IMG/VR virus record: IMGVR_UViG_3300022200_000023
Location: 1-64,000 of that record
Source of the DNA: a virus
DNA length: 64,000 nucleotides
Reading direction: 5' to 3' (one strand)
Made by a program: the position numbers and the translations under genes. Shown here piece after piece: positions 41,139 through 58,926 of this stretch (the stretch's first letter is position 1; each line of letters begins with the position of its first letter). The notes under the pieces are model-generated. The model saw only the letters and a program-made list of their open reading frames with translations, ran no database searches and was not told the origin of the DNA.

Positions 41139-42767
41139 CTAAGCAATCAACGAAGATCTAGCATCTGCGCTGTAGAAGGTAAGGTCCTTGCGGCGGATCT
41201 TGCCTGCAATCCACGCGAAAATCTGAGCGTGGAGTGCGTCGTCTGGGTTGGAGGGGGCGTGACGCCATACCCGCTTTCCGGCCTGCGTCACTTCCTCGTA
41301 CACCGACAGCATGTCCTCAAACACCGGAGCGCTCTGCTTCACGTTGGGGTACCGGTACAAGCCGTTCTTGGCGTTGTAGAGGAAGTTGTCGATCATCGTA
41401 GTACGGTCCGCCATGTAGCGGTCTCGCTGGTTCCAGCGAAGGTGGGCTCCTCCGCCCTCAACCCCTGCGTACTGAACCTGCCATACCCGCTGGGGCCCTA
41501 GGCGCTTAGTCAGTAGGTTGTTGCCGATGTGGCCCTCTCCTGCGTCACCAATCGCGAGACTTACCTGGTATAAGTTAAAGACGCGGGCGATTTCCTCGAC
41601 GGAGTCTACTGGGTTGACCACCGGGAAAATCTTGAACCACAGAGTGTGGTGGCGCCCTCCGGCGTCGATACCCCAGATCCAGGCGACAGTCCTAGAGTTA
41701 CCTTTCGAGCCCCCGCCGGACCAGTCTACCCCTCCCACTACGTGGACAACGCCCTTGGCCGACTCCGGCCTAACGGCCTTAGACGGTGAGGCGTCAAGAG
41801 TGTGCTCCTCGCAACAAGCCTGAAGCTCGTCAAGAGAGATAAGCCTCGCTCCGATAGAGTCGGAGATGCCCAGCACCTCGTTCTTAAAGTCCGAGGGTGC
41901 GTAGTCTTCGTGCTTCTGCAGAATTCTGGACCAGCGTTCAGGCCTCTCGTTGTTGAGCGGCAAGATTAGCTGCGGGATGTGGAAGCCCTTGATCCGGTCA
42001 GCGTCCGGAGATTCTGGGTCCACGTCATCGGGGACGGGGTTCATGTCTATCCACGTCCCATTACGGGGGTTTACGTACGCCTTACACTTGAGGCAAATGA
42101 TCCCCTTCTTTCCGATTCCCGCGTCATTGACGTAGTAGGAATAGTCGCCGCAAGCTTCACACTTCACGCACCACTCGGACTGGGTGGAGGACCGCCACAT
42201 AAACTCAATGGTGTTCTCCATCGTCTTAGGCGTGCCCGTGTAGCCAAAGTACCCGTAGTTGGAGTTAGCGGCGCACTCAGAGACCACAGGGACAACCTCG
42301 TCGTAGAGGATGTCCTGGATCTCATCGAAGTTGATGCGGTCAGCAGAGTACCCACGTGCGCGGTCAGGATCGTCCGACGCGTATGTGAATATGAGCTCAC
42401 TACCGTTAGCAAGGATCTTCAGGAAGACGTTGTCCGGGGCGTGCGGGTCTAAGTATAAGTCTCTCACCAACGGCGAATGCCGGAGCATCTTGGCTACGCG
42501 CGTATTAGAGAAGGTCGACGTCTGCTTGAGACTTGGGCTGACGTAGAGGGTTCTGAAGTACGGACGCGAGATCGCATCGACCACAGTGTGTGCTGCGGCT
42601 GACACGGACTTCCCTACCTGTCGCCCGCATTTCATCAGCGTTTTTCGCCACTGCCCCCTGTAAATAGCGTCATACATGGGGTAGTCGTATAGGGAAAATT
42701 GAGTGCCCTCTAGCCAGAGAAGCTTCTCGGCTAGTTGGCGACGCGACGCTTTGAATTCGACAGACAT
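41139..42767 (-). CDS. terL: Terminase large subunit
   Basis: 542 residues from ATG 42767 (MSVEFKASRRQLAEK). The DNA-packaging ATPase has Walker A CGRQVGKSVSAA near 48 and Walker B ADRINFDEIQD near 137. The nuclease domain (RNase H fold) has VGGVDWSGGGSKG near 350, LAIGDAGEGHIG and NPDDALHAQIFAW. Between them lies a zinc-ribbon insertion (CVKCEACGDYSYY, then CLKCKAYV). The start codon overlaps the start of the divergent MoxR gene by two bases, so promoters must lie inside each other's genes. TACGCGCGTA at 42495 encodes Thr-Arg-Val. I found no small subunit. Confidence 0.93.
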   Translation of the reverse strand: MSVEFKASRRQLAEKLLWLEGTQFSLYDYPMYDAIYRGQWRKTLMKCGRQVGKSVSAAAHTVVDAISRPYFRTLYVSPSLKQTSTFSNTRVAKMLRHSPLVRDLYLDPHAPDNVFLKILANGSELIFTYASDDPDRARGYSADRINFDEIQDILYDEVVPVVSECAANSNYGYFGYTGTPKTMENTIEFMWRSSTQSEWCVKCEACGDYSYYVNDAGIGKKGIICLKCKAYVNPRNGTWIDMNPVPDDVDPESPDADRIKGFHIPQLILPLNNERPERWSRILQKHEDYAPSDFKNEVLGISDSIGARLISLDELQACCEEHTLDASPSKAVRPESAKGVVHVVGGVDWSGGGSKGNSRTVAWIWGIDAGGRHHTLWFKIFPVVNPVDSVEEIARVFNLYQVSLAIGDAGEGHIGNNLLTKRLGPQRVWQVQYAGVEGGGAHLRWNQRDRYMADRTTMIDNFLYNAKNGLYRYPNVKQSAPVFEDMLSVYEEVTQAGKRVWRHAPSNPDDALHAQIFAWIAGKIRRKDLTFYSADARSSLIA

Positions 42768-43989
42768 GAGCGATACAACCGAAAAGGGCTCCGCCCAAAA
42801 CCGCTTCTGGGAGGAAATGGGTGTTCCTCTCGTTACCGTACAGCAGGCCCGCCTGGCCGTAAAGATGGCATTCGACGCCGGACTCGTCCCCGCTCTCGTG
42901 GGACACGCCGGCATCGGCAAGACGCAGTCCCTCAAGGAAGAGGGCCGCGAAGACCGCGGAGGTGGCTACTACGGCTGGTACCTCCAGACCGCCATGCCCG
43001 AGGACGTGCAGGGGCTGGCTTTCCGCGCACCGAACGGAAAGTCCTACGACTACCTGCAGCAGTCGCAGATAGTGAACAACGTGGACAGCCACGAGGGCGG
43101 CGTCATCGTCCTCGAGGAGCTCAACCGCGCCTCCAAGGAGACAGCGGCCGCGGCGTTCGCGTTCATGGATCAGTTCCACGAGAACTTCCCGAAGGGGTGG
43201 CACCTGGCGCTCGCCATGAACCCCAGCGGCGGAGAGTACGCCACGGACTCTCTGATCCACGACCCGGCGCTACGCCGCCGCGTCGTGTGGATCGCGGTAC
43301 GCGAAGACCGTACAGAGTGGCTCCGCTACGCGCGTGATCGCGAGCTGCACCCGATGGTAATCGCCTACATCGAGGCGAACGCCAACATGCTCCTGGACAC
43401 CAAGCGCCGCGCAGCCGGGCGGATCTACGCCACCCCCGCCTCGTGGGAAAAGGTGTCCACCATCCTCAAGACCATAGAGGAGCAGAACGGGGGCAACCTG
43501 TCTCCGATCCCCGCCGCCACCGAGAACGTTCTCTCGGGGCTGATCGGGGACACCGCGGCCGGTGAGGTCCTGCGGTTCATCGAGGACAACAACATCATCA
43601 TCCACCCGCAGGAGGTGTTGGAGTCCTACAAGGGGGAGAAGAGCGAGGTTCGCTCCCGCGTGCGCAACGCCATCCGATCCGGCCGCGTGGACGTCGTCTC
43701 CGCCCTGTGCGACAACCTCAAGACGGTGCTGCTGTCCAGCATGCCCAAGGTCAACAAGAAGCTCTGCGAGAACCTCGTGACCTTCTTGAAGGACCTGCCG
43801 AACGAGCTGAGGATGGTCGTCATCACTGGTTTCCGCGAGGCCAACACGCAAGAGGCCTCTCGTTGGGTCAGCACTCTTCAGCTGGAGCTGGTGCGCACCC
43901 CCGGGTACTCGGACGTCTTCACGTCCATCCTGGGAGACGTCACCAAGGTCGAAGAGGCGCTCAGCGACGAAGAGGCCAACAAGAAGTAA
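42766..43989 (+). CDS. MoxR-type AAA+ ATPase
   Basis: 407 residues from ATG 42766 (MSDTTEKGSAQ). Walker A is GHAGIGKTQSLKEE near 46-59; the Walker B strand reads GVIVLEELNRASKE near 118-131 with Glu in place of the usual first Asp; the sensor region is LALAMNPSGGEYATD, then PALRRRVVWIAV. MoxR ATPases act as chaperones and are typically paired with proteins having VWA domains. Such a partner is encoded at 48427, also with a metallopeptidase domain. A TACGCGCGTA variant lies at 43327. Followed without gap by a helicase gene. Confidence 0.88.
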   Translation: MSDTTEKGSAQNRFWEEMGVPLVTVQQARLAVKMAFDAGLVPALVGHAGIGKTQSLKEEGREDRGGGYYGWYLQTAMPEDVQGLAFRAPNGKSYDYLQQSQIVNNVDSHEGGVIVLEELNRASKETAAAAFAFMDQFHENFPKGWHLALAMNPSGGEYATDSLIHDPALRRRVVWIAVREDRTEWLRYARDRELHPMVIAYIEANANMLLDTKRRAAGRIYATPASWEKVSTILKTIEEQNGGNLSPIPAATENVLSGLIGDTAAGEVLRFIEDNNIIIHPQEVLESYKGEKSEVRSRVRNAIRSGRVDVVSALCDNLKTVLLSSMPKVNKKLCENLVTFLKDLPNELRMVVITGFREANTQEASRWVSTLQLELVRTPGYSDVFTSILGDVTKVEEALSDEEANKK

Positions 43990-45855: not shown

Positions 45856-46118
45856 GAGACTACGGTCTCCCGGATGTAGAACCCACGGGGACCCCCGAGT
45901 GGGAGCCTCTGGAAGGAGACGACGCACCGCCGTGCCCTAACTGCGGTGCCCGGCTTTGCAAGGTGAAGGTCGCAGTCAAGCTGGCGCTACTACGTGGCGG
46001 AGCAGGGACGGCCCACTACTTGGGGTGCCCTGCGTGTCCCTGGGCCAGCCCCAGCACTGCTGTCTCGGACAGAGCTAGCCCTACAAGCGGACCCCAGCCT
46101 CCAACAACTGAGAGTTAA
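45834..46118 (+). CDS. Small zinc-ribbon protein
   Basis: 94 residues, ATG 45834 (MDDTKSLRDYGLPDVEP), overlapping the helicase end by 22 bases. A zinc ribbon is visible: CPNCGARLCKV and LGCPACPWASP. The tail is Ser/Pro/Thr-rich. Its end overlaps the converging minus-strand gene by 38 bases. Function unknown; nucleic-acid binding is likely. Confidence 0.6.
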   Translation: MDDTKSLRDYGLPDVEPTGTPEWEPLEGDDAPPCPNCGARLCKVKVAVKLALLRGGAGTAHYLGCPACPWASPSTAVSDRASPTSGPQPPTTES

Positions 46119-46758
46119 GCAAACTACGCATCGTACTGACGTAGTTGCCTACCTCCATAAGAACCCTGGCGTGCACGCACGCGGCGTCATCCTCGTCGTA
46201 CGGGCACTCCTTGTGAGTGCCTAGGAGCTCCAGGGTTCTTTTCTTTAGTTCCTCTTCTCGGCCCACCTTCGGGACCATGGTGTCCAGCGCATCCTGTGCA
46301 AACGCCAGCTCAGGAGGAACAATCACCAGACCGCTTGTAGCACAAAGAGCAGCGGCGTAAACAGCGGGCTCATCCCCGTAAAACTGCGGCCCACTCCACT
46401 CTTCGTAATGCTGGGCCATGAGGCGCATCTCCACTACCGTCCAGCAGAGCTCACCAACCTCTGTGCCCGTGATGGACTCTGGCTGCGCAACCCGCCCATT
46501 GAGCGTCTCAGAGAGGTTCTCCAGCACGCGAGCGTCCCACAGGTAGGCAGGGTTAGCCCTGACCGCTGTGACCGCTAGGAGGCGGTCCAAGGCGGCCTCG
46601 TCGGGGGGCAGGCAGCCCTGGTCCTCCAAGAAGACCAAGAGGCTATCTGTCTCCCACGCAGCATGCGCCCCGCCCGTAAGCTCGTCACAGGCAAGGCTCT
46701 GCACTAGGGCCAGTGTGTCGCCCGAAGAGAGGAGGGATTTGGCTTTTTCTAGGAGCAC
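46081..46758 (-). CDS. Uncharacterised protein
   Basis: 225 residues, GTG start overlapping the upstream stop (TAGTG). It is helical and acidic with no membrane segment, beginning MLLEKAKSLLSSGDTLALVQ. A short Cys-containing stretch (HKECPYDEDDAACVHARV) lies near the C-terminus. No motif recognised. It belongs to a three-gene minus-strand group whose other members look like virion proteins. Confidence 0.6.
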   Translation of the reverse strand: MLLEKAKSLLSSGDTLALVQSLACDELTGGAHAAWETDSLLVFLEDQGCLPPDEAALDRLLAVTAVRANPAYLWDARVLENLSETLNGRVAQPESITGTEVGELCWTVVEMRLMAQHYEEWSGPQFYGDEPAVYAAALCATSGLVIVPPELAFAQDALDTMVPKVGREEELKKRTLELLGTHKECPYDEDDAACVHARVLMEVGNYVSTMRSLLNSQLLEAGVRL

Positions 46759-47414
46759 TAGTACCCCATGCGATCCGAGGCGCTAGCAAGACCACCCCAC
46801 TGCCGTTGTGGGTTCGTAGCCGACTCATGAGCGCGTCGAGCTCTAGCTTGCTCTTGAGCGAAGTTAAAATCTTGGTTGATCGCCGCGCGCCGGTTAGCCG
46901 CTTCCATAGCGCGCTCGTTCGCAGCTAATTCCGACTGCGACAAGTTTCTACTGCGGTGCTTCGGGGGATTTCCAAAATTGTGCTTCCAAGCGTCCACAGC
47001 GTCAGATGCGTCAAAGTTCAGCTGTTGATCAAACGGTAAAACTTGGGCAGCTCTAGACTCCAGGCCTGCTTGGGAGTAAGCATTCCGACCTGCAGAAAAT
47101 GCTCTATTGTGCTGTCTTTGCAGATCCTGCAGGCGGTGTAGGTCACTGGCCGAACTGGTTGCAGGGTTAAAGTTGTTCAGAGCATCCCGGAAATCCATAT
47201 CAACCTGGTTGTAGTGGTTCAAGGCGTCCCTGCGAGCTGCTCCGCCAGTTCGCTTGTGCCAGGCCTTCTGAACCCCACCCCACGCGTCACCTAGCGCATC
47301 AGCGCCTCGTCGGAAGATGTTAGCAGTCTTCTCCGTGCCGTCCAGCATCCCGAAGTCTTCTAGCGCCTGCTGGCACCCAAGATCATAGGCCTCTTTGAAA
47401 AAGTGTTGGCTCAC
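46758..47414 (-). CDS. Virion-type protein with AY-x-LG N-terminus and K-T-A motif
   Basis: 218 residues, beginning MSQHFFKEAYDLGCQQALED followed by FGMLDGTEKTANIF, combining the AY-x-LG signature and the K-T-A motif seen in the head operon more than 30 kb away. The rest is rich in Ala, Asn, Gln, Arg and Asp and looks largely helical. Its likeness to the head-operon proteins suggests it is also a virion component. Function unknown. Confidence 0.6.
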   Translation of the reverse strand: MSQHFFKEAYDLGCQQALEDFGMLDGTEKTANIFRRGADALGDAWGGVQKAWHKRTGGAARRDALNHYNQVDMDFRDALNNFNPATSSASDLHRLQDLQRQHNRAFSAGRNAYSQAGLESRAAQVLPFDQQLNFDASDAVDAWKHNFGNPPKHRSRNLSQSELAANERAMEAANRRAAINQDFNFAQEQARARRAHESATNPQRQWGGLASASDRMGY

Positions 47415-47415
47415 T

Positions 47416-48387
47416 TTATCTCCCCAACTGCTTCAGCAGCAGCGCATGCATGTCCCGAGGCAAAGTCGGGAAAATCTCTTTGACCTTGCTGGGGTCCACT
47501 ACCCCACCCTCAGCGATCTCTTCAACGACCTCAGGGCCGAGAACGTCCGAGTAGAACTCAGGGCCCTTCTTCACCAGCTCCGCCAGCGCTACGGGGGTGC
47601 CGCCCAGGTCCACCATCTCAGTCATGGCTTCCTTGGTGTTGAACACGGTCTTCAGCGGATCCGGGAGAGACTTACCGTAAAGGCGAGCTAGGCCGTGCTG
47701 CTTGTCGAGCTCGGACACAGCCTCCGCCACCTTCGTAAGTTCGGCCCGTTCTGTGGTAAAAGGAAGGGACCGCACCAATTGAGCTACGCGCGTATAAGCT
47801 CCGGCCCCAGCAGGTGCTGCAGCCCCTCGAGCGTCAATCCACTCAGCCGCCTTGTCGCGGTCACAGGGAACGATACCCGCCCACTGGTAAACCTCGGTGG
47901 GAAGCTCCTCGTCTCGGGCTGCCGCGTGCTTAACGAGAACAGAAGCCGCAGTAGCCAGGCTCGTAGGAGACAGCTTGCGCTGGTTGCGCGAAATGGCCTC
48001 GTGCGCCAACTTAAGGCTGGTTCCACTGTAGATAGGGAACTGGCGTGTGTGCGGTAGCAGGTAGTCCGGAGTTTCGGCGGCTGCAGCCACCTTCTCAAAC
48101 TCCTTCTTAGGCAGCGTTGCGCCGTAAACCGTGAGTGCTGCCTGAATGCGGCCCGTGACTTCGGGCGCTACACTCGCCGTCTTCTCTGCATACGCGGAAG
48201 ATAGCAGTGCGTGCTCCTTGGTGTGCACTGGAAATTCTCGGTTAACCGGGTCTGCAAAAGCAGACGAAGGTAGGTTGTCCCGAACCTCCCGCCCCACTTC
48301 AGCAGTTTTCACGAGCGGACTCAGGGTAGGCCGCTCAGCGATGATTTCGCGTAGAACAGCAAAAGTGGTGTCGGTGTTCTGATCCAT
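47416..48387 (-). CDS. Virion-type protein with repeated K-x-A motifs
   Basis: 323 residues from ATG 48387 (MDQNTDTTFAVLREI), with GGAGAAGG just upstream. K-x-A motifs: VKTAEVG, EKTASVA, FEKVAAAA, LKLAHEA, VKHAAARD and LTKVAEAV. The protein is predominantly helical without a membrane segment. TACGCGCGTA at 47785 encodes Thr-Arg-Val. First gene of the minus-strand three-gene group, divergent from the VWA operon. Likely structural; no fold recognised. Confidence 0.6.
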   Translation of the reverse strand: MDQNTDTTFAVLREIIAERPTLSPLVKTAEVGREVRDNLPSSAFADPVNREFPVHTKEHALLSSAYAEKTASVAPEVTGRIQAALTVYGATLPKKEFEKVAAAAETPDYLLPHTRQFPIYSGTSLKLAHEAISRNQRKLSPTSLATAASVLVKHAAARDEELPTEVYQWAGIVPCDRDKAAEWIDARGAAAPAGAGAYTRVAQLVRSLPFTTERAELTKVAEAVSELDKQHGLARLYGKSLPDPLKTVFNTKEAMTEMVDLGGTPVALAELVKKGPEFYSDVLGPEVVEEIAEGGVVDPSKVKEIFPTLPRDMHALLLKQLGR

Positions 48388-48426
48388 GTACCTTCTCCGA
48401 GAGCTGGTCAAATTCTAGACAAAAAA

Positions 48427-49851
48427 ATGCAGAAGAAAAAGCATACAGCGTCCCTCGAGGCGCTACTAACCTATCTGCTTTCCGCCCACGGCGGGAGCAA
48501 GACCTCACCGTTCTTCCCGCACGTCCTGCGTGCGTTGGTGAAGAGGCCCGTGCCGAACATGGGCACCTTCGGAGTCAGCATCACCCCGGAAGGCAAGCTC
48601 CTTCTGATGTACGACCCGAAGATCCTGGAGCGGCTGTCGGTACGCCACGCCATCCTCGTACTCATCCACGAGGTGTACCACATCGTTCTCCACCACATTC
48701 CTCGCGGGCTGCGCCTGCTGGACCAGGTGGCGTCCTCCACCGAACTGGAGAAACGCAAGTTCTTCGCCATCTCCAACATTGCTGCCGACTACGCGGTCAA
48801 CTCGCTCATGGTGCAGTGCGGGGAGTGCATCCCCAGTGACTTCAAGCTCATGGGAGAGAAGGACCCAAAGACGGGCAAGTACGACTTCGCGGGGTGCTAC
48901 CCCACGGACTCGCAGCTTCCAGAGCGCAAGACCTACGAGTGGTACTTCAACGCGCTCATGTCCGACCTGGACAACTTCGTCCAGCAGCTTGTGGCCTTCA
49001 TGAAGGCCGCAGGCACATTGGGCGAGGGTGAAGGCCCGAAGGGGAAGTTCCCCACCGACGAGGAGATCGTCGAAGCGCTGGAGCGCTACCGAGAGATGCA
49101 CGCTCCGACCAACAACGACGACGAGCTCAAGCGTCAGTCAGACCAGATGAACCCGGACCAGCGCCAGGCCGCAGCGGGCAAGGCTGAGCGGGAATCTCGC
49201 CAGGCCGTCCGGAAGGCCAAGGAGGAGACGCAGAAGTCTCGCGGGTCCCTTCCTGCAGGGTTGGAGGAGTACATCTCCAACATGCTGGAAGAGGCAGAGA
49301 TCCCGTGGCAGCAGTTCTTCAAGACCTGGCTGCAGAACACCCTGCGCCACCGCCGTAAGCGGTCCATGTGCAAGCCGCGTAGAAGGCTTCTCGACATGGA
49401 GGACATCTGCGAGTTCCCCGGCCGAATGCGCGAGAAGATCTACACGATCATCTTCGCCATCGACACCTCCGGGTCCATGTCCAACTCGGACATCGCAGAC
49501 GCGCTGTCGGAGTTGCGGGGAATGCAGGCAGCTGCCCCTGGCATTCAAATCACGGTCATCGAGTGCGACGCCCAGATCGGCCGGGAGTACACGATCGACG
49601 AGTTCACCGAGCCCCAGCGCAACGTCACCGGGCGCGGCGGGACGCGCTTCGAGCCCGTGTTCGAACGGGCAGCGCAGCTCAAGGCTGATGCGCTGATCTA
49701 CGCCACGGACGGCTATGGGTCCCTGCCCTCCATCGAGCTCATGCGCGTTCGCCCGCTCTGCTGGCTGGTGACGCACAACGGCGTTGCTCCCTGGGAGGCT
49801 GGCTACGGCTCCGGCGCTCAGTACGGCCACGTAATCAGGCTGAAGCGCTAA
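48427..49851 (+). CDS. Metallopeptidase-like protein with C-terminal VWA domain
   Basis: 474 residues. The N-terminal part has a zincin signature, LVLIHEVYHIVLHH, with HEVYH at 81-85, as in the putative metallopeptidase domain family paired with VWA-like domains. A charged linker (about 210-280) follows. The C-terminal VWA-like domain has the metal-site motif FAIDTSGSMSNSD near 345, then TGRGGTRF and DALIYATDGYG. Proteins of this build work with MoxR ATPases; one is encoded at 42766. It opens the operon that contains the reverse transcriptase. No clear ribosome site precedes the ATG (poly-A instead). Confidence 0.85.
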   Translation: MQKKKHTASLEALLTYLLSAHGGSKTSPFFPHVLRALVKRPVPNMGTFGVSITPEGKLLLMYDPKILERLSVRHAILVLIHEVYHIVLHHIPRGLRLLDQVASSTELEKRKFFAISNIAADYAVNSLMVQCGECIPSDFKLMGEKDPKTGKYDFAGCYPTDSQLPERKTYEWYFNALMSDLDNFVQQLVAFMKAAGTLGEGEGPKGKFPTDEEIVEALERYREMHAPTNNDDELKRQSDQMNPDQRQAAAGKAERESRQAVRKAKEETQKSRGSLPAGLEEYISNMLEEAEIPWQQFFKTWLQNTLRHRRKRSMCKPRRRLLDMEDICEFPGRMREKIYTIIFAIDTSGSMSNSDIADALSELRGMQAAAPGIQITVIECDAQIGREYTIDEFTEPQRNVTGRGGTRFEPVFERAAQLKADALIYATDGYGSLPSIELMRVRPLCWLVTHNGVAPWEAGYGSGAQYGHVIRLKR

Positions 49852-49853
49852 AC

Positions 49854-50534
49854 ATGGCTTTACCGGAGAACGGGATCCTGCACATCAAGGTCTATAAGGC
49901 CGCGACGCGCGGGATCCCGTTCGACCAGTTCTATTTAGTGCCGAAGACCGAGCGGGAACTTTTTAAGCGTGTGTTCCCCGCTTATGTCCGCACACAGTTC
50001 AACGATACTTTGTGGTCGCGCATTTTAGGCGTGGAAGTTAGCTCCGTGGCTAAAACAGACACCACGGGCTACCACCGCAAGGAAACTCTGGACCCGCTGG
50101 CAACGCTGTCTGCACTTTGGCAGACCGAGCAGTGGCCTGAGGTGCATAGTCACTTCGACGTCGCAGTGCCCGTGGTCCTGCAGCACCCCAAAACCGTCCC
50201 CGATGAGCGCAACAACCCAATGAACGGCTCCGCGCGGCTGGGCTACTTAGTAGCCCGAGGGTGGCATCGGTCTAGAGCGGCTTCCCAGAGCCCGAAACTC
50301 GTCAACCGGCTTGACGCCGCCAACACGGTCTTCGTGGCTTACGGAGAAGAAGTGCGTCCGCTTTGTTTAGCGTGTCCTCGGCTACATGACGTACTGGACG
50401 GGCGTTGCTCGCTAGGAGATGACTACTGTCTCCGCACAATAGGCCTTGTGGGTAAGCCCACCTACCTCGCACGCTTGAAGGTCTACAAGGAAAGCGAAGA
50501 TTTGGCGGAAGTTGCTTCCGCCTTCCCTGAATGA
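49854..50534 (+). CDS. Uncharacterised protein upstream of reverse transcriptase
   Basis: 226 residues, starting 2 bases after the previous stop. It begins MALPENGILHIKVYKAATRG and is mixed alpha/beta. A cysteine cluster near residues 168-189 (CLACPRLHDVLDGRC, then Cys6 residues on) may bind zinc or iron-sulfur. Its stop overlaps the reverse transcriptase ATG (ATGA), so the two proteins are probably made in step. Not recognised. Confidence 0.65.
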   Translation: MALPENGILHIKVYKAATRGIPFDQFYLVPKTERELFKRVFPAYVRTQFNDTLWSRILGVEVSSVAKTDTTGYHRKETLDPLATLSALWQTEQWPEVHSHFDVAVPVVLQHPKTVPDERNNPMNGSARLGYLVARGWHRSRAASQSPKLVNRLDAANTVFVAYGEEVRPLCLACPRLHDVLDGRCSLGDDYCLRTIGLVGKPTYLARLKVYKESEDLAEVASAFPE

Positions 50535-51664
50535 CAGCGTACAACCACACGCAGCTAGCCGTCCTAACCATCCCCACCGTACAACACAGCCTGCCTCCAG
50601 TAATGGATGACGTTTCCCTGGCGTACAGCCTCGGCATTCGTCCCAAGACTCTCTGGTGGGCTGTGTTCGGTGGGCGGGAGCTAGCTGGAACAGCTAAATC
50701 GACTTACACAAAGGGCGCCATCCTCAAGCGAGGGAAGGCGGGCTCACGTGGCGCACTTCGCGCCATCCACGTCCCTGACTGGCGCGTCAAGAACATTCAG
50801 AAAGTCCTCTCTGCTGCCTTCGTGAAACCCATCCCTGTGGGAGACCACGTACGCGCGTACGAGCCGGGGGTAAAACCCCTGGACACCGCTGAAGCGATAG
50901 CAGGCAGCAAGATCCTGTGGTCCTTCGACCTAAAAAACTTCTTCGGGTCGATCCGACTACCCTGGATCCGTGAGTACTACGAGAGTCTGGGGTACCCCAG
51001 GCAGGTGGCAAACCTCATTGGGCAGCTGTGCTGCGTCACTGACGTACACCCCTCTGGCAAAGGCAAAGTCAGGTTTTTGCCGCAGGGGACCGTCGTGAGC
51101 CCTGCACTAGCTAACCGAATCGCCGACCATCGCTTAGACCAGAGAATACTGACGTTGGCGCAGGCCAACGGCTGGTCTTACTACCGGTACTCGGACAACG
51201 TTTACATGGGGCACCCAGACCGTCTCAGCCGAGAAGAGGTAGACGCTTTCAAGGGACAGGTATTTACCGCGGTGGGGCAGTCTGGTTGGCGCCACCACAA
51301 ATCCCGAGTAGCCCTGTACTGGAACAGACAATCAGTGCTCGGCGCTGTCGTGAACGAAAAGCCAAACATGCCTTCTGACGAATACAAAGCACTGCGGGCT
51401 GCGGTCTACAACTGTCGCGTACATGGATTCTCGTCCCAAGTAGCCAAAGCTAGGCAGCGCTTCAAATCTTCGATTACCACTGATGAGCAACTCATCTCCC
51501 ACTTGCGAGGACGGTTGGCCTACCTAAAGGCTCTCCTGTCCGAGGACAAGTACAACAAATTGCACGATGATTTCTCCGCAGCCCTTGAGGCGCACCGGAT
51601 TACGGTGCAGCGCAAGTGGCTGGAAGAAGACCTACAAGACGCACGCGATGCTGCCGGAACTTAA
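50531..51664 (+). CDS. Reverse transcriptase (retron/group II-like clade, YSDN active site)
   Basis: 377 residues. Palm motifs: WSFDLKNFFGSIR (catalytic Asp133), FLPQGTVVSPALANRIAD (183-200), YYRYSDNVYM with Tyr220-Ser-Asp222-Asn223, KSRV, and VLGAVVNEKPNM (269-280). The N-terminal RAIHVPDWRVKNIQKVL matches the finger region of retron-like enzymes. The usual YxDD is YSDN, so the second Asp is Asn; polymerases with GDN exist in some RNA viruses, so activity is possible. No retron NAxxH motif is seen. Overlapping genes on both sides leave no room for an adjacent msr-msd RNA. TACGCGCGTA at 50850 lies in it. Confidence 0.88.
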   Translation: MTAYNHTQLAVLTIPTVQHSLPPVMDDVSLAYSLGIRPKTLWWAVFGGRELAGTAKSTYTKGAILKRGKAGSRGALRAIHVPDWRVKNIQKVLSAAFVKPIPVGDHVRAYEPGVKPLDTAEAIAGSKILWSFDLKNFFGSIRLPWIREYYESLGYPRQVANLIGQLCCVTDVHPSGKGKVRFLPQGTVVSPALANRIADHRLDQRILTLAQANGWSYYRYSDNVYMGHPDRLSREEVDAFKGQVFTAVGQSGWRHHKSRVALYWNRQSVLGAVVNEKPNMPSDEYKALRAAVYNCRVHGFSSQVAKARQRFKSSITTDEQLISHLRGRLAYLKALLSEDKYNKLHDDFSAALEAHRITVQRKWLEEDLQDARDAAGT

Positions 51665-53297
51665 GGTTTACAACCTGACGCAGGGGTACGGGGGCAGCGA
51701 CGCCCCCGCGGCTGCCTACCGCGTAGAAGCCGAGCACCTGGACACGCTGCTTGGCTTGCTGCGGGATGCGCACCCACAAGGTTTGTTGGTGGCGTGCGTC
51801 CCTGACCCGGACGGGTATGTGCTGGTCAGCTCCCTTGGGCGGTTACCACTACTTTCCGTGGTCGACCTGGAAGCCGAGCTAAGCGCCGCCAGGGAACACG
51901 TAGACCTTCGAGCTTACTTTCAAGGTCGCGAACTAGCACCTGGGACCGGGGAGCTGACGACCCTGATTCAGGCCTGTAAGGTCCCCGCTAGGTTGCTGGG
52001 GGAGGGGTGCTACACCGTGTGCCCCAAAGCTCCTCCGCACTGTTTGTCCTACCTCAGCGGCCAAGACCGTCTCCCGCAGACGCCTATACCGTACCAGACG
52101 CAAGTAGCGAGCCGTTCCCATGCTCGAGGGCGAGGCGACCACCGAAACCGGTTCCGCAGTAGACCCTACTACTCAGAGCAGCGTAGTACTCAGTACTTCC
52201 CGCTGCTACAGTGGGTGAGCGGAGTAGAGCCCCCGGTCCATAACATCAACACCGACTTTGTGCGCTTTTTACACTCCAAGCTAAGTGAGGACCTGGACGC
52301 CTTGCTGCGGACGAAGTTCTGTGTGAAGACGCCCGAAGTAGCTAGACCGTGGCAAGTTTCGTCCCGCGCTTACTTCCCAGAAGCCGGTCTTAATGATTAC
52401 GGCGGTTTCCGTGGTATCAACCTATCCACTAACCTAGCTGCCGAAGTTCAGAAGCTTCGGTCAGAGCGCGGCCAAAAGGCTGCCGCTGGGCGCAAGATGG
52501 TTGCCGATGAGTGTTCCCGATGCGTCTTTGCAGACGGTCATTGTTCCCAGAGGCCCAAGTACCGCTGCGCCGGCCACGTAAGCCCCGAATATTTTGCTGC
52601 GACTGTGAAGTCAGCCGTAGAGGAATACTACGGGGGCATACCGGACCCTAATGCCGACTGGGTACAGAAGCACTTCAAGCTACAGGAGACCTCAGGTGCC
52701 TGGCGCCCTCCGAACAGTAAAGGAAGGCCTGCTGGCGTCTCGGTGTTCGGCGTGTTTCCTACTGCAGACGCGGCGCTGGGACTCCGCGCGTCCCACCCCT
52801 TAATCAACCACCGCGCAGTCAGAGCGGGGGACTGGCGTCCTCCTGACGGAGCTCCTCCTGGTACCCTGTACGCACGGCTACTGTGGAAGTCTTGGAGACG
52901 AGGCTCGCGCGAGGGGCGGCCCGTGTTCGCCGCTCCGCTAGTAACTCCCGCGGGCAACTTCTTAGCGGACACTCCGTACATGATTTCCGGCCCAGGCGCT
53001 AACCTCCTAGACTACGCACTGAACCGGCCTGACTCGGTAGTCCAAGACCAGATCGCACTTCTAGACACAGAGGAGAAGTGGCTCTCTTACTGGGCCGTAC
53101 TTCTTGTGGCGTGCTTTGGTAGGAGTGGGTGGTACAACTACAAGTCCTTGTTCTCCAGCAGGGTGCAGGCGGGCAACTACAGCAACTGCCCGAGCATCGG
53201 CTCCCGCTGGTATCGCACACAAGCTACGTACCTAGCACTGATGTCTTGGCCTCTAGACTTGTACCCCTCCATGCTAATGCCCCGAGACAACTCGTGA
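51648..53297 (+). CDS. Uncharacterised protein of the reverse transcriptase operon (549 aa)
   Basis: 549 residues from ATG 51648 (MLPELKVYNLTQGYGG), overlapping the reverse transcriptase end by 17 bases. The first 160 residues look like a compact domain. An Arg/Ser/Tyr-rich linker follows (SRSHARGRGDHRNRFRSRP). A cysteine cluster lies near 290-307 (CSRCVFADGHC, then RC). The C-terminal half is rich in Trp, Pro and Tyr. The basic linker and zinc-like cluster would suit RNA or DNA binding. Not recognised in any family I know. Confidence 0.7.
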   Translation: MLPELKVYNLTQGYGGSDAPAAAYRVEAEHLDTLLGLLRDAHPQGLLVACVPDPDGYVLVSSLGRLPLLSVVDLEAELSAAREHVDLRAYFQGRELAPGTGELTTLIQACKVPARLLGEGCYTVCPKAPPHCLSYLSGQDRLPQTPIPYQTQVASRSHARGRGDHRNRFRSRPYYSEQRSTQYFPLLQWVSGVEPPVHNINTDFVRFLHSKLSEDLDALLRTKFCVKTPEVARPWQVSSRAYFPEAGLNDYGGFRGINLSTNLAAEVQKLRSERGQKAAAGRKMVADECSRCVFADGHCSQRPKYRCAGHVSPEYFAATVKSAVEEYYGGIPDPNADWVQKHFKLQETSGAWRPPNSKGRPAGVSVFGVFPTADAALGLRASHPLINHRAVRAGDWRPPDGAPPGTLYARLLWKSWRRGSREGRPVFAAPLVTPAGNFLADTPYMISGPGANLLDYALNRPDSVVQDQIALLDTEEKWLSYWAVLLVACFGRSGWYNYKSLFSSRVQAGNYSNCPSIGSRWYRTQATYLALMSWPLDLYPSMLMPRDNS

Positions 53298-53725
53298 ACA
53301 TTACTGGCGCCGACCTGAAGAAGCTCATACCTGATGAGCTGCGCGCACAGGTCGACAAAATCTCGTTCCCTTCACAGTCCGGGGGGACCGAACCTTACGC
53401 AGTGGTCACGTTGGACACGGAGTTCGGGCAGCTAGACGTAGTGGTCTATCGCAAGGAGATGGCTAGGTTCATGGGGCGAAACTCCGCCCCGACCGCCCGA
53501 GGAGACTCGGCGTCCCCGGGCAGTACCCTAGACACAACCACCGCGCAGACCAAGGACTACTATGTGGGCAAGACTCGCAAGACTAGCGCGGGCCTCACTG
53601 AGACCTTAGTAGGGTTCACGGCGGGGTCTTCCCAGAAGGAGAAGCCTGCCAATGTTGGCCGAAGAGTCCGCCATCCCGAGACGGACCGCCTAGTCTGGCC
53701 TATCTGGAAACTGGGGAATGGCTGA
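53294..53725 (+). CDS. Small protein of the reverse transcriptase operon
   Basis: 143 residues, GTG start overlapping the preceding TGA (GTGA), beginning MNITGADLKKLIPDELRAQV. The N-terminal 70 residues look like a small alpha/beta domain (YAVVTLDTEFGQLDVVVYRK), the rest is a polar Thr/Ser/Gly-rich linker and a basic end. Its stop overlaps the next gene start by 8 bases. Function unknown. Confidence 0.65.
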   Translation: MNITGADLKKLIPDELRAQVDKISFPSQSGGTEPYAVVTLDTEFGQLDVVVYRKEMARFMGRNSAPTARGDSASPGSTLDTTTAQTKDYYVGKTRKTSAGLTETLVGFTAGSSQKEKPANVGRRVRHPETDRLVWPIWKLGNG

Positions 53726-55088
53726 GATGAACTACTTCCAGCTAGGACCGGAGTACGAGCCCACGAAGGCCTACTTCGTGTCCTCGGCTGGAAAGGTAAC
53801 CGACGTAAGTCGAGAGATGCAGATTGCTCGTAGCATGAGCCCATTTCTTGGCTTCCCTGCAGGGGGTAGTCTGCTGTTGCTGGCCACAGCCAAATTTAGT
53901 AACTGGGGCCAGCGTCTGGAGAAGCGGGTCTACGTAGCGTCAGGAGAGGATACCGCTCCTGAAGAGCTAGTCCGCGCATTCTATGCAGCTAAGATTGGCC
54001 ACCCGCTGCTGCTAATAACCACAGCCGCACAGCGTCTTCTGGACACTAACTACGTGACCACTATCCGGTGTGTCACGTCTATCCCTGGGACCCTGGCGGA
54101 CACCTGTCCCAAAACAGCAGTTTTGGCTGGGCTAGCCCAGAACACCAAGACAGGTCTTCACCTTAGCGTCTACAGTGCTACTAGCCGCAGCCTAGCCCCC
54201 CTTTTTGACAAAACCGCGTACATTAGAGAGAAACTGCTTTCGCAGTTTACTGCTCTGGCGGTAGGGGACACTGCCCTCTCCGACAACCGAACGCGGGCTT
54301 TGACCGCAGGAGTCACAAAGCGGAATACTAAGCTTCCGCTGGACCGCGTAGCCTTACTAGGAGAGTGGTACCGAGAAGACTTCCACGCGCTGAAACACGG
54401 CTTATGCCTAGCGTCCCAGTGTAAGCCTTACGCGCCGGAAATAGCAGGCAATGACGCCCTCATCCAAAGCGCGGCAGAAGCCTTGCCCGCGCAGTGGTCC
54501 CGCTTGACGCAGTACAAAGCCTTGCAGAAAGCAGGAGAAGCCGCGGTACGAGAACGCAGCCACTGCGTAGGGGGCCACCGAGCCGGTCTGGACACTAAGG
54601 GTCGCTGGAATCTGTATCGCCTATTGTCTTACGACGACTACAGCCGGTGGTTGAACCCGGTGCTGGCGACGGCACAGGCCGTCCTGGCCTACAACACGAC
54701 TGCATGCCCGCTAAGAACGTGGGCTAAGTACGTGGAAAGCCTGTCAACTTCGCCACCGGCTAAGGAAGACCTAGTGGCGCTACTGCACTACAGCGTTCGG
54801 GAACTGGGTGCACGGAGTTACTGTTACGGTGCAGAGACCGCCGGCCCCGTACCGGAGAGTGTCCTCGACGGACTGCTGTCCCGAGAGAACGCAACTCGCG
54901 GGTGGTCAATACTAGACCTGTACGGCTTGTTTAAGGCCTTGCCGAGGCTCCCCAGGTCAGAAGCTCTCCTAACCTACGTAGAGGCGCTGTTTTCTAGATT
55001 CTACAGTGACGCTATAGACGCTCCGGAGCGCCAAACCGCGGAGGACACAGCCATGCTAGTAGAAATAGGTGCCCAGTTAGGGTTCTAG
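53718..55088 (+). CDS. Uncharacterised protein closing the reverse transcriptase operon
   Basis: 456 residues, ATG 53718 (MAEMNYFQLGPEYEP), with a second ATG at 53727. A mixed domain of about 280 residues is followed by RERSHCVGGHRAGLDTKGRW, where HCVGGH faintly recalls the H-C-V-G motif of PcfJ-like plasmid/phage proteins, and then by a helical C-terminal region. The likeness is short and may be chance. The gene ends the operon just before a strong terminator. Confidence 0.65.
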   Translation: MAEMNYFQLGPEYEPTKAYFVSSAGKVTDVSREMQIARSMSPFLGFPAGGSLLLLATAKFSNWGQRLEKRVYVASGEDTAPEELVRAFYAAKIGHPLLLITTAAQRLLDTNYVTTIRCVTSIPGTLADTCPKTAVLAGLAQNTKTGLHLSVYSATSRSLAPLFDKTAYIREKLLSQFTALAVGDTALSDNRTRALTAGVTKRNTKLPLDRVALLGEWYREDFHALKHGLCLASQCKPYAPEIAGNDALIQSAAEALPAQWSRLTQYKALQKAGEAAVRERSHCVGGHRAGLDTKGRWNLYRLLSYDDYSRWLNPVLATAQAVLAYNTTACPLRTWAKYVESLSTSPPAKEDLVALLHYSVRELGARSYCYGAETAGPVPESVLDGLLSRENATRGWSILDLYGLFKALPRLPRSEALLTYVEALFSRFYSDAIDAPERQTAEDTAMLVEIGAQLGF

Positions 55089-55089
55089 C

Positions 55090-55124
55090 AAAGAAGCGCT
55101 TTCCGGCTTGGGGAGCGCTTCTTT
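55090..55124. terminator. Bidirectional rho-independent terminator
   Basis: AAAGAAGCGCT at 55090-55100 pairs with AGCGCTTCTTT at 55114-55124, an 11-bp perfect stem with T-rich tail on the plus strand (TTTTTAG) and T's on the minus strand from the A-rich left arm. It separates the converging reverse transcriptase operon and the appendage operon. Confidence 0.9.
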
Positions 55125-55131
55125 TTAGCTG

Positions 55132-56379
55132 TCACTGCAAGCTAGTTAAGTCGATGTCGGGGCAGACCACCAGCAGCTCAGCGGCAGCAGCGTTTTCAGA
55201 GCTTTGCGCGCTTGTGACGTCCGCCTGCGCAGACTCGAGCTCGCTGAGAGCAGAGTTTTCAGCGGTAATCTTAGTATTAAGATCAGTGTTGCTCGTAGCA
55301 CATTGGGTCGTAGCGTAACTAAGATGCTCCGCGATCTTGGCTGCCAGGCCCGACGAGCTCTGGTACGAGTTTAGCGCTGCTTGTGCTTTGTTCGCTGCCG
55401 CCGCTGCTGCGCCGTAGTCGTTAGTGGGTAGGATGTCTGTGAAAAGCCGGATCTCGAAAGAGTCAGCCCCTGCTGCTGGCGTGAAACTGAATGCCGGAGA
55501 TACCGTAGCGTTAGTAGCGCCTACTGCGATAATAGCCCGGACCTCCTTATGCCCGTCAGTAGCATCCGTGAGGGCCAGAATTCCGCCAATGTACGCACCC
55601 TCCAGGGCGACGCCCAGCTTCACCACCGTAGCAGTGCTACCCGCCTGAGCTGTGCCTGTGAGCCCATTCACCGCCCTAGTGGCCCTCTCAAATTGGTCCG
55701 CTGCAGCGTTCAACGCCGTAATAGCGTTTTGTAGCGCGATGGCTGGATTAAGGGCCGGAGCAGTATTAGCCACGTCAACCAGCCCGTTGAGCTCAGTGAG
55801 ACGGGTCTTGTAGCCGCAGTGGATGTCACGCTTGTCACGACTAACGGTCGTATTGCCCTGCGCAGTATTGTACGCCGTCTGCTTAGTGGCCTGAGTGAAC
55901 TCAGCGTCCACTCGGGCTTCGTACGCGTCGGAGTAAGCGGTTTTGTAGCCGTCCTTAACTGCAGCGCCCGCAGAGTTAGTCGGCAGCTGCGTAGTCTCAG
56001 CTGCCGTAATGAACTGCGTCCGCGACGTCTGCCAGGTGGTGACCAGGCTGTCCACTCGGTCAGTGACAACAGGGATGGCCGCGATAGCCGTGTCTAAATC
56101 GTCGAACGTTAGTGTGACTTTGGCTACCCGGTACTCGGTGTGCCCTAGGGCCACTGCGGTAGACCGAATGTCCTGCACCAGGTCCATGTCTGCGATAGTA
56201 GCTACGCGCGTAAAAACGTCGTCCGGCGCCGTAGCTCCTAGCGTCACCACAAATACATGCGGAGACATCGGAGGAGTGGATGGAGACGAGCCCGACGTGG
56301 CTACGATCTCAATGTGATACTTAGCGATGCCTCCGCTATAGGTAGCGTATCTCCGCTGCTTAACGCTTAGCTCAGACAT
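55132..56379 (-). CDS. Coiled-coil appendage-type protein
   Basis: 415 residues, beginning MSELSVKQRRYATYSGGIAK. The first 80 residues are beta-like (YHIEIVATSG, then FVVTLGATAPDDVFTRV). The rest is long Ala/Thr/Asp-rich heptad sequence with a beta-rich insert near 270-320 (GTAQAGSTATVVKLGVALEG). It ends with helical sequence (LSELESAQADVTSAQSSENA). The make-up fits a tail fibre or appendage protein. TACGCGCGTA at 56203 encodes Thr-Arg-Val. Last gene of a three-gene minus operon, overlapping its neighbour. Confidence 0.58.
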   Translation of the reverse strand: MSELSVKQRRYATYSGGIAKYHIEIVATSGSSPSTPPMSPHVFVVTLGATAPDDVFTRVATIADMDLVQDIRSTAVALGHTEYRVAKVTLTFDDLDTAIAAIPVVTDRVDSLVTTWQTSRTQFITAAETTQLPTNSAGAAVKDGYKTAYSDAYEARVDAEFTQATKQTAYNTAQGNTTVSRDKRDIHCGYKTRLTELNGLVDVANTAPALNPAIALQNAITALNAAADQFERATRAVNGLTGTAQAGSTATVVKLGVALEGAYIGGILALTDATDGHKEVRAIIAVGATNATVSPAFSFTPAAGADSFEIRLFTDILPTNDYGAAAAAANKAQAALNSYQSSSGLAAKIAEHLSYATTQCATSNTDLNTKITAENSALSELESAQADVTSAQSSENAAAAELLVVCPDIDLTSLQ

Positions 56380-57124
56380 TCAAGACCTCAGAGGCAGTAG
56401 GCGCAGTCGGCGCCTTTACGGTAACCACAATATCTGCTGTATCGGAGACGCTATCGGTGACTCGCACGGTTACTGTCTCTACCACGTCTACCCCACCGGC
56501 AACAAACACCCCAGTACTGGTAACCAGGCTACTGTTAGTAGTGCCGTCCGACACAAGACTGTACACATACTCCCGAACACCGCCAGAGGCCTCAAAGTGT
56601 AGTTGGTCCCCAGGGTATACGGAGTACGCCACGCTGCTGTCTCTGTAAGGCACCGCGCCAATCACGCCCAAAGTAAGGGGGCCGAAGGTGCCGCTGGTAC
56701 TGGACGAATCCACGCCTAGCAGTGCCTTGACGCCTCCTCTGGCGGCCTGGTACGCGTTGTTAGCCGCGTCCCACTTAGTGTAAGTCTGGCTGATGCTGTT
56801 AGTTCTGTAGGCGTGGTACCCAAAGGCGTACGTACCGTTGGTAGCTTCGTCTGGGTCGTATACGTCTGCTTCGGAGGGGTCGATTACCCCGAGCCCGGAC
56901 AGATCAACGTGGTTGGCCACTCTGCGGTACTGAGGAGAGCTCCACGTCCACGCACGGTACCCTGTCTGCGGAGCTTCGTCCGGGGCGGGATCTACCGTCT
57001 TGGCCCTAACTACAACGAGTATACTGTCCGAAACCTCGGAAGGCCCGGAGGTAGCTAACGTCAGCGTCCACAGAGAAGACGGGGCATCATACGTCAGCCC
57101 GGCCGTGAGGGTTAAGCTAGGCAC
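56372..57124 (-). CDS. Beta-rich protein with Ig/cadherin-like domains
   Basis: 250 residues, GTG start overlapping the upstream stop (TAGTG). Two beta-domain regions are visible: MPSLTLTAGLTYDAPSSLWT with STILVVVRAKTVDP-like strands, and a C-terminal half (YPGDQLHFEASGG, then TVTVRVTDSVSDTADIVVTV) with the look of a bacterial Ig-like or cadherin-like domain. Such domains are common on phage surfaces and may bind host glycans. Structural appendage protein is the likely role. Confidence 0.58.
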   Translation of the reverse strand: MPSLTLTAGLTYDAPSSLWTLTLATSGPSEVSDSILVVVRAKTVDPAPDEAPQTGYRAWTWSSPQYRRVANHVDLSGLGVIDPSEADVYDPDEATNGTYAFGYHAYRTNSISQTYTKWDAANNAYQAARGGVKALLGVDSSSTSGTFGPLTLGVIGAVPYRDSSVAYSVYPGDQLHFEASGGVREYVYSLVSDGTTNSSLVTSTGVFVAGGVDVVETVTVRVTDSVSDTADIVVTVKAPTAPTASEVLNV

Positions 57125-57489
57125 TACGCGGACTCTAGCTCATTAACCGCTACACCCACAAACGCAGCTACCTCTTCGTACGCGTCCAACACAGCTTGTA
57201 CGCGCGTAACGAAGTCGCCTTTGGCAGCAGCCCCCGATGCAGCGGTATCATAGACTATTGTGGCGGTGGCCTTCCGGTAGTGGCTGTAGTTCGTATCCCG
57301 TACAGCCGGGTACGCAACAATCTCGTACGGGGAGGCTACGCCCACGTAAGCGTCTTTGTCCTCTGTCACTCCTCGGCTAAACATAAGCAATTCGTCGGGG
57401 ATACCGTCTCCATCGCTGACCGTAGCTACAATTTGGGATTGACCCTCTCCCAGTATGGTACAGTTCAGCGTCAGAGTTAATGTAGCCAC
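57124..57489 (-). CDS. Small beta-rich appendage-type protein
   Basis: 121 residues, GTG start inside the 10-bp palindrome CCACGCGTGG (57487-57496). It begins MATLTLTLNCTILGEGQSQI, similar in style to its neighbour's start, and looks like a single beta domain followed by a helix (GDFVTRVQAVLDAYEEVAAF). TACGCGCGTA at 57199 gives its Thr-Arg-Val. Divergent from the RuvC-like gene. Function unknown. Confidence 0.58.
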   Translation of the reverse strand: MATLTLTLNCTILGEGQSQIVATVSDGDGIPDELLMFSRGVTEDKDAYVGVASPYEIVAYPAVRDTNYSHYRKATATIVYDTAASGAAAKGDFVTRVQAVLDAYEEVAAFVGVAVNELESA

Positions 57490-57502
57490 GCGTGGTCTCC
57501 AA

Positions 57503-58024
57503 ATGCATACTTACCTGGGGATAGACCCCAGCCTAACGTCCACAGGAATAGTACTCCTATCTTCCAACACCCGGCCAACAGAAATCGCGTTATGCCCTAC
57601 CACCCGGAAATACAGGCTGAGCTGGTTCTATAGCGAGGTGGAGAAGCTTTTGTGGGGTCGTCGCGTGACTTATGCCGCCATAGAAGGCCCTTCGTACGGG
57701 AGCGTCGGCAGGGGCTCTGACCTGGATCAGCTGCGGGGGGCGCTGCGCCTTCTTCTAGAGCTGCGCAACATCCCCTATGTTATCCCTGCCCCCAAGGAAG
57801 TTAAGAAATTCGGAGCAGGCCTGGGTGGCGCTACCAAGCCCCAAATGGTGCGGGCGGCCAACGCTGACGGCTGCGCCTCCGACTTAGACGACATCTGCGA
57901 TGCCTGGCACCTGGCCCGACTTGCTGAAGGCGTATACTTAGGTCGAAGCCCAAAGCCTACCCGCGCCTCTGCGCAAGTAGTTCACAACCTAATCACTAGG
58001 GTGGCAGAGCATGCCTCTCTCTAA
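57503..58024 (+). CDS. RuvC-like Holliday junction resolvase
   Basis: 173 residues from ATG 57503 (MHTYLGIDPSLTSTG). RNase H-fold resolvase motifs: YLGIDPSLTSTGIVLL with the first Asp, VTYAAIEGPSYGSVG with the Glu, and DDICDAWHLARLAE with the final Asp pair. RuvC-type enzymes cut four-way DNA junctions; phages use them to debranch DNA before packaging. It overlaps the next gene by 14 bases. Confidence 0.85.
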   Translation: MHTYLGIDPSLTSTGIVLLSSNTRPTEIALCPTTRKYRLSWFYSEVEKLLWGRRVTYAAIEGPSYGSVGRGSDLDQLRGALRLLLELRNIPYVIPAPKEVKKFGAGLGGATKPQMVRAANADGCASDLDDICDAWHLARLAEGVYLGRSPKPTRASAQVVHNLITRVAEHASL

Positions 58025-58463
58025 CGCCACCCTTCTTCAAGAGCTAGTTGACTTAGGGGAACACGCTACTCAACCCGGAGCGGCCCGAGCTTGGGGCGCT
58101 GCTTACGCTGCTTACGCCCAGCAATCTACCGCGCTCTCTCCTACACCGGGAATAGCCTTAGCTACTGCGACAAGTGTGATTGTCCCGGCCTTAGCTGGGC
58201 TCCCCTCCGCCGGTAGCAGTTTCTACTCAACACTAGCTGCCGCATTGATGGCTTTCTGGACGACAGCAATCCCTTCAGGTACTCCGGGTGCGGGGGCAGT
58301 GCTTGTGCCCCCCGGGCTAGCTGAGCTTCTCGAGCCGCCGTCGCGGTCTGCATTAGCAGCTCGAGACCGCGTCTCTGCCCTGACTCCTATTGCTAATACG
58401 CTGCACACCTGGGCACTGACGATATCCTACACCGTAGGGCAGAGCAGCGTGCCTCTTACCTAG
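58011..58463 (+). CDS. Uncharacterised small protein
   Basis: 150 residues, overlapping the RuvC-like gene by 14 bases. It begins MPLSNATLLQELVDLGEHAT and has mixed hydrophobic segments rich in Ala, Thr, Pro and Leu (LALATATSVIVPALAGLPSA; then STLAAALMAFWTTAIPSG) without strong charge. It could be structural or membrane-associated. Its end overlaps the converging minus-strand gene by 8 bases. Not recognised. Confidence 0.6.
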   Translation: MPLSNATLLQELVDLGEHATQPGAARAWGAAYAAYAQQSTALSPTPGIALATATSVIVPALAGLPSAGSSFYSTLAAALMAFWTTAIPSGTPGAGAVLVPPGLAELLEPPSRSALAARDRVSALTPIANTLHTWALTISYTVGQSSVPLT

Positions 58464-58926
58464 CCCCAAGTTCGTACCCTGCGTAGCCGCCCGCAAGAAA
58501 CAATACTGCCCCCGCCGCAATGACCCAGTAAAGCGCACCTCCACGCACAGACCACTCGTACTCCTCTGCGACTTCGGCTTCTAGCGCGCGGAGCATTTTA
58601 GCGTCCTCCTCGCCCACTTCCATGTACTCAGCAATCGCGTTCTCATAGGACGCCACCGCTAACGTGTATAGCCTAGCCTGTCTCTCTAGCAGAGTAATCT
58701 TAAGCTCGTAGCTGCCTAGGAGATCTTCGTTCTCCCGGCAACCCACTTCGTAAAGCTTGAGTAGCTTGGCCTGCTCGAAGTCGTAGCAAGCTAGATCCCC
58801 GACTACGGACCACCGAGGTAATTCCGCGCTAAGGCTGTAAGTCGGAAAAGCTAGTTGCAGCACGCACGTTAGCGCGAGCAGTCTCGGCCCTAGTCCTGAT
58901 GTCCCCGATGGTTTGATCGATAACAT
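58456..58926 (-). CDS. Signal-peptide protein with C-terminal membrane anchor, spanin candidate
   Basis: 156 residues from ATG 58926 (MLSIKPSGTSGLGPRLLALT), with longer starts possible. An N-terminal signal segment (LLALTCVLQLAFPTYSLSA) is followed by a helical, heptad-like external part (about 50-125) and a C-terminal transmembrane helix (ALYWVIAAGAVLFLAGGYAG). This is the order found in unimolecular spanins, though the lipobox is not clear. The gene overlaps the next upstream membrane gene by 98 bases in another frame, which is typical for spanin pairs. Role inferred, not proven. Confidence 0.5.
   Translation of the reverse strand: MLSIKPSGTSGLGPRLLALTCVLQLAFPTYSLSAELPRWSVVGDLACYDFEQAKLLKLYEVGCRENEDLLGSYELKITLLERQARLYTLAVASYENAIAEYMEVGEEDAKMLRALEAEVAEEYEWSVRGGALYWVIAAGAVLFLAGGYAGYELGAR

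Follow-up and report, generated by a model that had tools for sequence, protein, structure and literature searches.

The window analysed here is a stretch of 64,000 nucleotides (nt) from a virus (positions 1 to 64,000 of IMG/VR record IMGVR_UViG_3300022200_000023) that carries a six-gene operon around a reverse transcriptase (RT) gene, and our analysis singles out three of these genes, orf2, RT and orf4 (hereafter the trio), as a unit conserved in a large and diverse clade of uncultivated phages. The record comprises 95.5 kb in total, and the window is also found unchanged within a 160.9-kb contig (G001).

All six open reading frames (ORFs) lie on the plus strand. The operon starts with orf1 (48427..49851, +), which encodes a DUF2201 metallopeptidase-like and VWA protein of 474 amino acids (aa; Pfam DUF2201_N 4.5e-20, DUF2201 VWA 5.8e-15). 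After a gap of 2 nt follows orf2 (49854..50534, +; 226 aa, with a C-terminal four-Cys cluster), which overlaps the RT gene (50531..51664, +; 377 aa, Pfam RVT_1 3.7e-15, box YSDN and VLG) by 4 nt. The start of orf4 (51648..53297, +; two four-Cys clusters) was corrected to the ATG at 51648, giving a protein of 549 aa and an overlap of 17 nt with RT. We number orf2, RT and orf4 as subunits 1, 2 and 3 of the trio. Overlaps of 4 nt (orf4/orf5) and 8 nt (orf5/orf6) link the last two genes, orf5 (53294..53725, +; 143 aa) and orf6 (53718..55088, +; 456 aa). The operon ends in a terminator hairpin followed by a T run (55087..55128, +), which was not flagged by a simple terminator scanner and was detected by folding against shuffled sequences (-24.5 kcal/mol, z = -4.1). 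ORF coordinates and folding thus bear out the gene order, the overlaps, the 2-nt gap and the terminator as described in the original prediction, and Pfam agrees with its reading of orf1 as a metallopeptidase-VWA protein.

Distribution of the operon among related phages

Direct searches recovered a single relative, apart from copies of the same phage. A route via the terminase yielded 80 related loci at an identity of at least 40%, and a profile built from four phage RTs matched 33 of 50 related phage records collected in this way. Together with the window and the loci L004, L024 and L027 these form the set of 37 RT loci considered below, a few of which are nearly identical. DUF2201 is present in all 37, orf2 in 35 and orf4 in 32, and the order DUF2201-orf2-RT-orf4 is kept across the set; orf1, orf2 and RT occur together in 35 of the 37. 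The position is also constant. A homologue of the divergent gene at 47416..48387 (-) lies directly upstream of DUF2201 in 37/37 loci, and on the downstream side, marked in the window by the conserved convergent gene at 55132..56379 (-), the same minus-strand gene cluster is found in 32. Forty-one loci, including some near duplicates, contain DUF2201 together with at least 3 kb of downstream sequence; 33 of these carry the full trio, one carries orf2 and RT, two carry RT only and five carry none of the three. Neither orf2 nor orf4 occurs without RT at any of these 41 loci, and in the large records that lack RT (69 to 158 kb, which may be fragments) orf2, orf4 and any RVT_1 match are absent throughout.

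In the distant phage L024 all six genes are found in the same order, at identities to the window of 45% (RT), 27% (orf2), 25% (orf4), 42% (orf5) and 25% (orf6). Because the same genes recur in the same order in so distant a phage, and because orf1, orf2 and RT stay together in almost all RT loci, a chance arrangement can be excluded. The two last genes, orf5 and orf6, are nevertheless restricted to the window's lineage and L024 (2/37 RT loci) and are local additions outside the conserved unit. The DUF2201 family, in turn, is also present in phages without RT, where it lies close to an ATPase with no RT beside it. Since orf5 and orf6 are rare and DUF2201 keeps this other company, the conserved system is the trio orf2-RT-orf4, and the six genes as one system, as originally proposed, are not supported by our data. 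Freely varying RT neighbours had been named as the finding that would speak against the proposal; orf2 and orf4 are conserved with RT, in its favour, and orf5 and orf6 do vary. What stands of the overall interpretation is the RT system, not the six-gene unit.

The orf1 gene is the usual upstream neighbour of the trio and is not specific to it. Its likely partner is a MoxR-like ATPase (phrog_1297) encoded at 42751..43989 (+) in the window (PHROGs 2e-45; AAA_5 under the curated cut-off). The orf1 family is named "HNH endonuclease" (phrog_1314) in PHROGs and in GenBank phage annotations, a name that looks wrong beside the Pfam assignment. For orf6, a PcfJ-like identity via SHCVGGH was considered and rejected, the motif being absent from the L024 homologue.

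Two further gene arrangements were noted. In some RT-less phages (L060:4234-5394 (-), also L068 and L071) a phrog_1362 protein (3e-32) is encoded directly after DUF2201; an assignment of this gene to DUF932 was unsupported. In the RT-only locus L162 a 202-aa protein with an orf2-like C-terminal four-Cys cluster (L162:7394-7999 (-)) and a 554-aa protein with two orf4-like Cys clusters (L162:5748-7409 (-)) are encoded downstream of RT, and the same holds for L163. The Cys patterns would fit rearranged orf2 and orf4 genes; profile comparison was not significant, and we do not assign them as such.

The reverse transcriptase and its two neighbours

The best RT models in PADLOC are all retron types, and the 25 best matches are retron RTs. 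The nearest models are RT_XIII (up to 1.8e-80 for L045), RT_other and RT_outgroup, and the best relative in the PDB is the Ec86 RT. Its sequence places the RT within the retron/retron-like lineage. In a midpoint-rooted tree with a limited reference sample of 11 retron-lineage RTs, which held no Abi (abortive infection) or UG (unknown group) sequences, all phage members form one clade with a support of 100/99. A search of genome contigs returned only a single remote Prevotella RT.

All 37 RTs retain the Asp of motif A and the G of PQG, as well as the first of the two Asp residues in the YxDD box. The last catalytic Asp is kept in 30 (YADD, YSDD or YCDD) and is Asn in the remaining seven, the window and six other loci (YSDN); six of the seven make up the window's clade (98/92), and the seventh, L145, is a long branch elsewhere in the tree. 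Rates of nonsynonymous relative to synonymous substitution (dN/dS) in close pairs range from 0.08 to 0.24 and show purifying selection on the RT; by the motif pattern, most members have kept the polymerase core intact. Two retron motifs are altered. The T of VTG, the motif that contacts msr (PMC6868368), is replaced by L in 36/36 RTs, giving xLG in all and VLG in the window. At the place of NAxxH the window reads TAEAI; judged by a loose pattern, the region-X His is kept in 31/37 RTs and lost in the window's clade. Both motifs are variable in the lineage at large, VTG being found in only 47% and NAxxH in only 59% of retron/retron-like RTs (PMC4244168). In 25/37 phage RTs, e.g. L132, L138, L149 and L160, a Cys/His segment (CxxC...HxCP) is inserted after region X and before motif A; the RTs of the window's clade do not have this insertion.

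The proteins next to RT had been noted before for their zinc-like clusters, rightly in the case of orf2, where an alignment of 33 members has four invariant Cys in one cluster, and of orf4, where 30 members share seven invariant Cys and one more conserved at 90% or more, in two clusters. No family was found for orf2, orf4, orf5 or orf6 in Pfam, PHROGs or PADLOC; in PADLOC, retron effector and accessory proteins included, neither orf2 nor orf4 has a convincing model match, and orf4 has no match among GenBank phage or plasmid collections. Known families were considered for both proteins (Pfam for orf4; PHROGs, PADLOC, PDB sequence and PDB fold) and rejected, as the matches were weak and scattered. 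One of these, DDE_Tnp_1_6, matches the region around a Cys cluster in 4/30 orf4 members, at best with 7e-4, and was not taken as homology. With a profile built without the window's group, the window's orf2 is recovered at 1e-27 and its orf4 at only 0.0065; the latter is tied to the wider family via the bridging members L024 (8e-11) and L131 (9e-8).

Confident AlphaFold models were obtained for representative homologues rather than for the window's own proteins, namely orf2 of L067 (predicted local distance difference test 89.3, predicted template modelling score 0.85) and orf4 of L069 (91.1 and 0.80, respectively). Foldseek against the PDB at E <= 0.001 gave no match for orf4 (best 0.04) or orf2 (best 0.68), and a fold search of the orf4 model in BFVD gave none either. 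The fold comparison thus covered the PDB for both proteins and BFVD for orf4 only, and did not extend to cellular predicted structures.

Searches for an RNA partner and the genomic setting

In most members orf2 and RT overlap or lie at a distance of -4 to 0 nt, small ORFs fill the larger gaps of one subgroup, and the space between DUF2201 and the upstream divergent gene is less than about 90 nt. Ten pairs of sequences contained no islands of synonymous-site conservation of the kind a hidden RNA would leave, and Rfam gave no match at E <= 1 in window positions 44000-60000. An msr-msd retron RNA beside the RT was rejected on these three grounds, there being no room for it in any member. The earlier observation that no retron RNA fits beside the gene thus holds, with gaps near zero throughout, and within this cis scope a dedicated RNA gene fits neither in nor beside the operon. 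The Rfam search also gave no group II intron RNA around the RT, and there is no intron-sized noncoding space.

A template repeat/variable repeat (TR/VR) pair, the mark of a diversity-generating retroelement (DGR), was not found anywhere in the 160.9-kb contig, which contains the window identically. The original prediction had seen none in the window; across the approximately 160-kb genome there is none just outside it either. The only repeats with a slight A-bias belong to a coding 129-bp tandem array (about 7 mismatches) that encodes 43-aa repeats of a tail-fibre-like protein. This one array holds the two ends of the contig (L178:1-469 and the end of L185/L186), from which we take the genome to be probably complete, with a length of about 160.4 kb.

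Apart from the operon, the phage encodes a family A DNA polymerase (PolA; 37594-40734, +) with an N-terminal fusion to a uracil-DNA-glycosylase-superfamily domain. It has a helicase in which Helicase_C_2 and DEAD domains are found, and a DnaG-like primase with a CHC2 zinc finger and a Toprim match under the curated cut-off. A cluster of 11 phage tRNA genes was noted at L182:11438-14531. The window also encodes an RNase HI at 29043-29486 (+), for which the best PDB match reaches 7.5e-21. In a set of 19 large records, RNase H is confined to the three whose RT has YSDN (G001, G003 and G006); it is found in 0/11 with a YxDD RT and in 0/5 without RT. This association may reflect shared ancestry alone, and the idea that RNase H generally partners the RT was rejected, as it is present in the window's clade only.

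Interpretation and comparison with known systems

We propose that orf2, RT and orf4 form a three-protein RT complex with an RT of retron-like origin and a near-core nucleic-acid function in a large phage clade, a reading to which we give a little less than an even chance. In its favour are the overlaps and co-inheritance of the three genes, their constant site, the purifying selection on the RT, the polymerase core kept by most members, the lack of space for an RNA in cis, and two Cys-cluster proteins whose folds match no solved structure. The three proteins would assemble into one complex in which the RT is an active polymerase and the Cys clusters of orf2 and orf4 bind metal. The latter two would replace the missing msr RNA and present the primer or the template. 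As substrate the complex could take a trans-acting RNA such as a tRNA or an mRNA of phage or host, or the enzyme might work with no template at all, for which AbiK/Abi-P2 (PMC9508834) and DRT1 (PMC13275509), a defence-associated RT (DRT), are precedents. The DNA product would be used for phage replication, takeover of the host or counter-defence, and would not belong to a mobile defence cassette. In the weakest step of the proposal, DUF2201 and the ATPase, as co-expressed neighbours, may remodel or metal-load the complex. More tentatively, the trio could be a new class of RT machine that large phages use in a near-core step of infection, in which two metal-binding proteins of new fold have taken the place of the guide RNA of a retron-lineage polymerase and one clade has a natural YSDN site.

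Several points weigh against this proposal. Some sister phages lack the trio and, as they do without it, it is not essential. Two RT loci have RT only, with no recognisable orf2 and orf4. The window's own clade carries YSDN, which may be weak or inactive, and an RNA gene elsewhere in the genome may act in trans. The retron-like lineage of RTs is, moreover, best known from defence.

This last point leads to a scenario in which the phage carries a new retron-like type of defence that excludes rival phages, the RT and its product restraining an orf4 or orf2 toxin until a rival infects. Retrons combine RT, RNA and effector in defences of this kind (PMC12548924), the RT is of retron lineage, as in the RT_XIII match of L045, and two uncharacterised partner proteins could serve as effectors. 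We consider this unlikely, as msr-msd space and VTG are both absent, orf2 and orf4 find no convincing counterpart in PADLOC, and exchangeable defence cargo would not be expected to keep a fixed site and co-inherited partners across so diverse a clade. It is rather improbable, too, that the trio is a counter-defence set in which a mimic of the retron RT, together with orf2 and orf4, captures or copies host retron or DRT RNAs and so blunts immunity. Such a role would suit a retron-lineage RT with no RNA of its own, neighbours of early-region type and a lost msr-contact motif; the conserved polymerase core suggests catalysis over mere capture, the lost region-Y motif speaks against msr binding, and near-core status suggests a more general need. 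For the window's clade only, the RT might be a weakened or inactive scaffold retained for binding instead of synthesis. The Asp-to-Asn change in the box and the loss of the region-X His in that clade would fit; yet every other residue of the core is retained, and members with 45-66% identity share YSDN without exception. Some viral polymerases, moreover, naturally use GDN or ADN, and we hold the scaffold scenario, like the preceding one, to be rather improbable. DGRs do exist in phages (PMC8867640), and diversification had been among the functions originally suggested, but with no TR/VR-like pair in the 160.9-kb contig and an RT that scores with retron-lineage models, a DGR can be discounted almost entirely.

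The categories in use for bacterial and phage RTs are retrons, DGRs, group II introns, CRISPR-RTs and Abi/DRT defence enzymes. By the tests made, the trio is neither a DGR nor a group II intron, and as it has no adjacent noncoding RNA, VTG or known effector it is not a retron in the strict sense either; it matches no described type in the libraries searched, in line with the earlier suggestion of an undescribed phage RT system. In the present case a large phage clade has the RT as a nearly fixed gene, linked to two uncharacterised protein families and lacking an RNA in cis. Should the enzyme be active, many DNA phages use reverse transcription in their ordinary life cycle. The trio also offers a defined three-protein system with a natural active-site series (YADD, YSDD, YCDD, YSDN) and natural losses.

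With retrons the trio shares the RT sequence lineage, the RT motifs and, in most members, the RYADD/RYSDD box. It differs from them in the lack of msr-msd space, in xLG instead of VTG, in the loss of NAxxH in the window's clade, in the Cys/His insertion of 25/37 phage RTs and in orf2 and orf4, which match no retron accessory model; the YxDD box of retrons is found at 30/37 loci and is YSDN in the window. AbiK/Abi-P2 and DRT1 are RT-related enzymes that need no nucleic-acid template, and they may resemble the trio in function only. The 25 best PADLOC matches include no Abi or DRT model, and the trio has partner proteins; an Abi/DRT placement of the RT is unlikely, with the reservation on tree references given above. 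In the literature a single parallel was found, the RT of staphylococcal jumbo phages, which is conserved, has no known role and lacks DGR features (PMC10638138); the one such RT sampled falls outside the present clade in the tree, its exact place having low support. Finally, orf1 and the ATPase at 42751-43989 are a pair of the phage DUF2201 (VWA) plus MoxR-like ATPase type. Such pairs also occur in phages with no RT beside them; here the RT trio follows.

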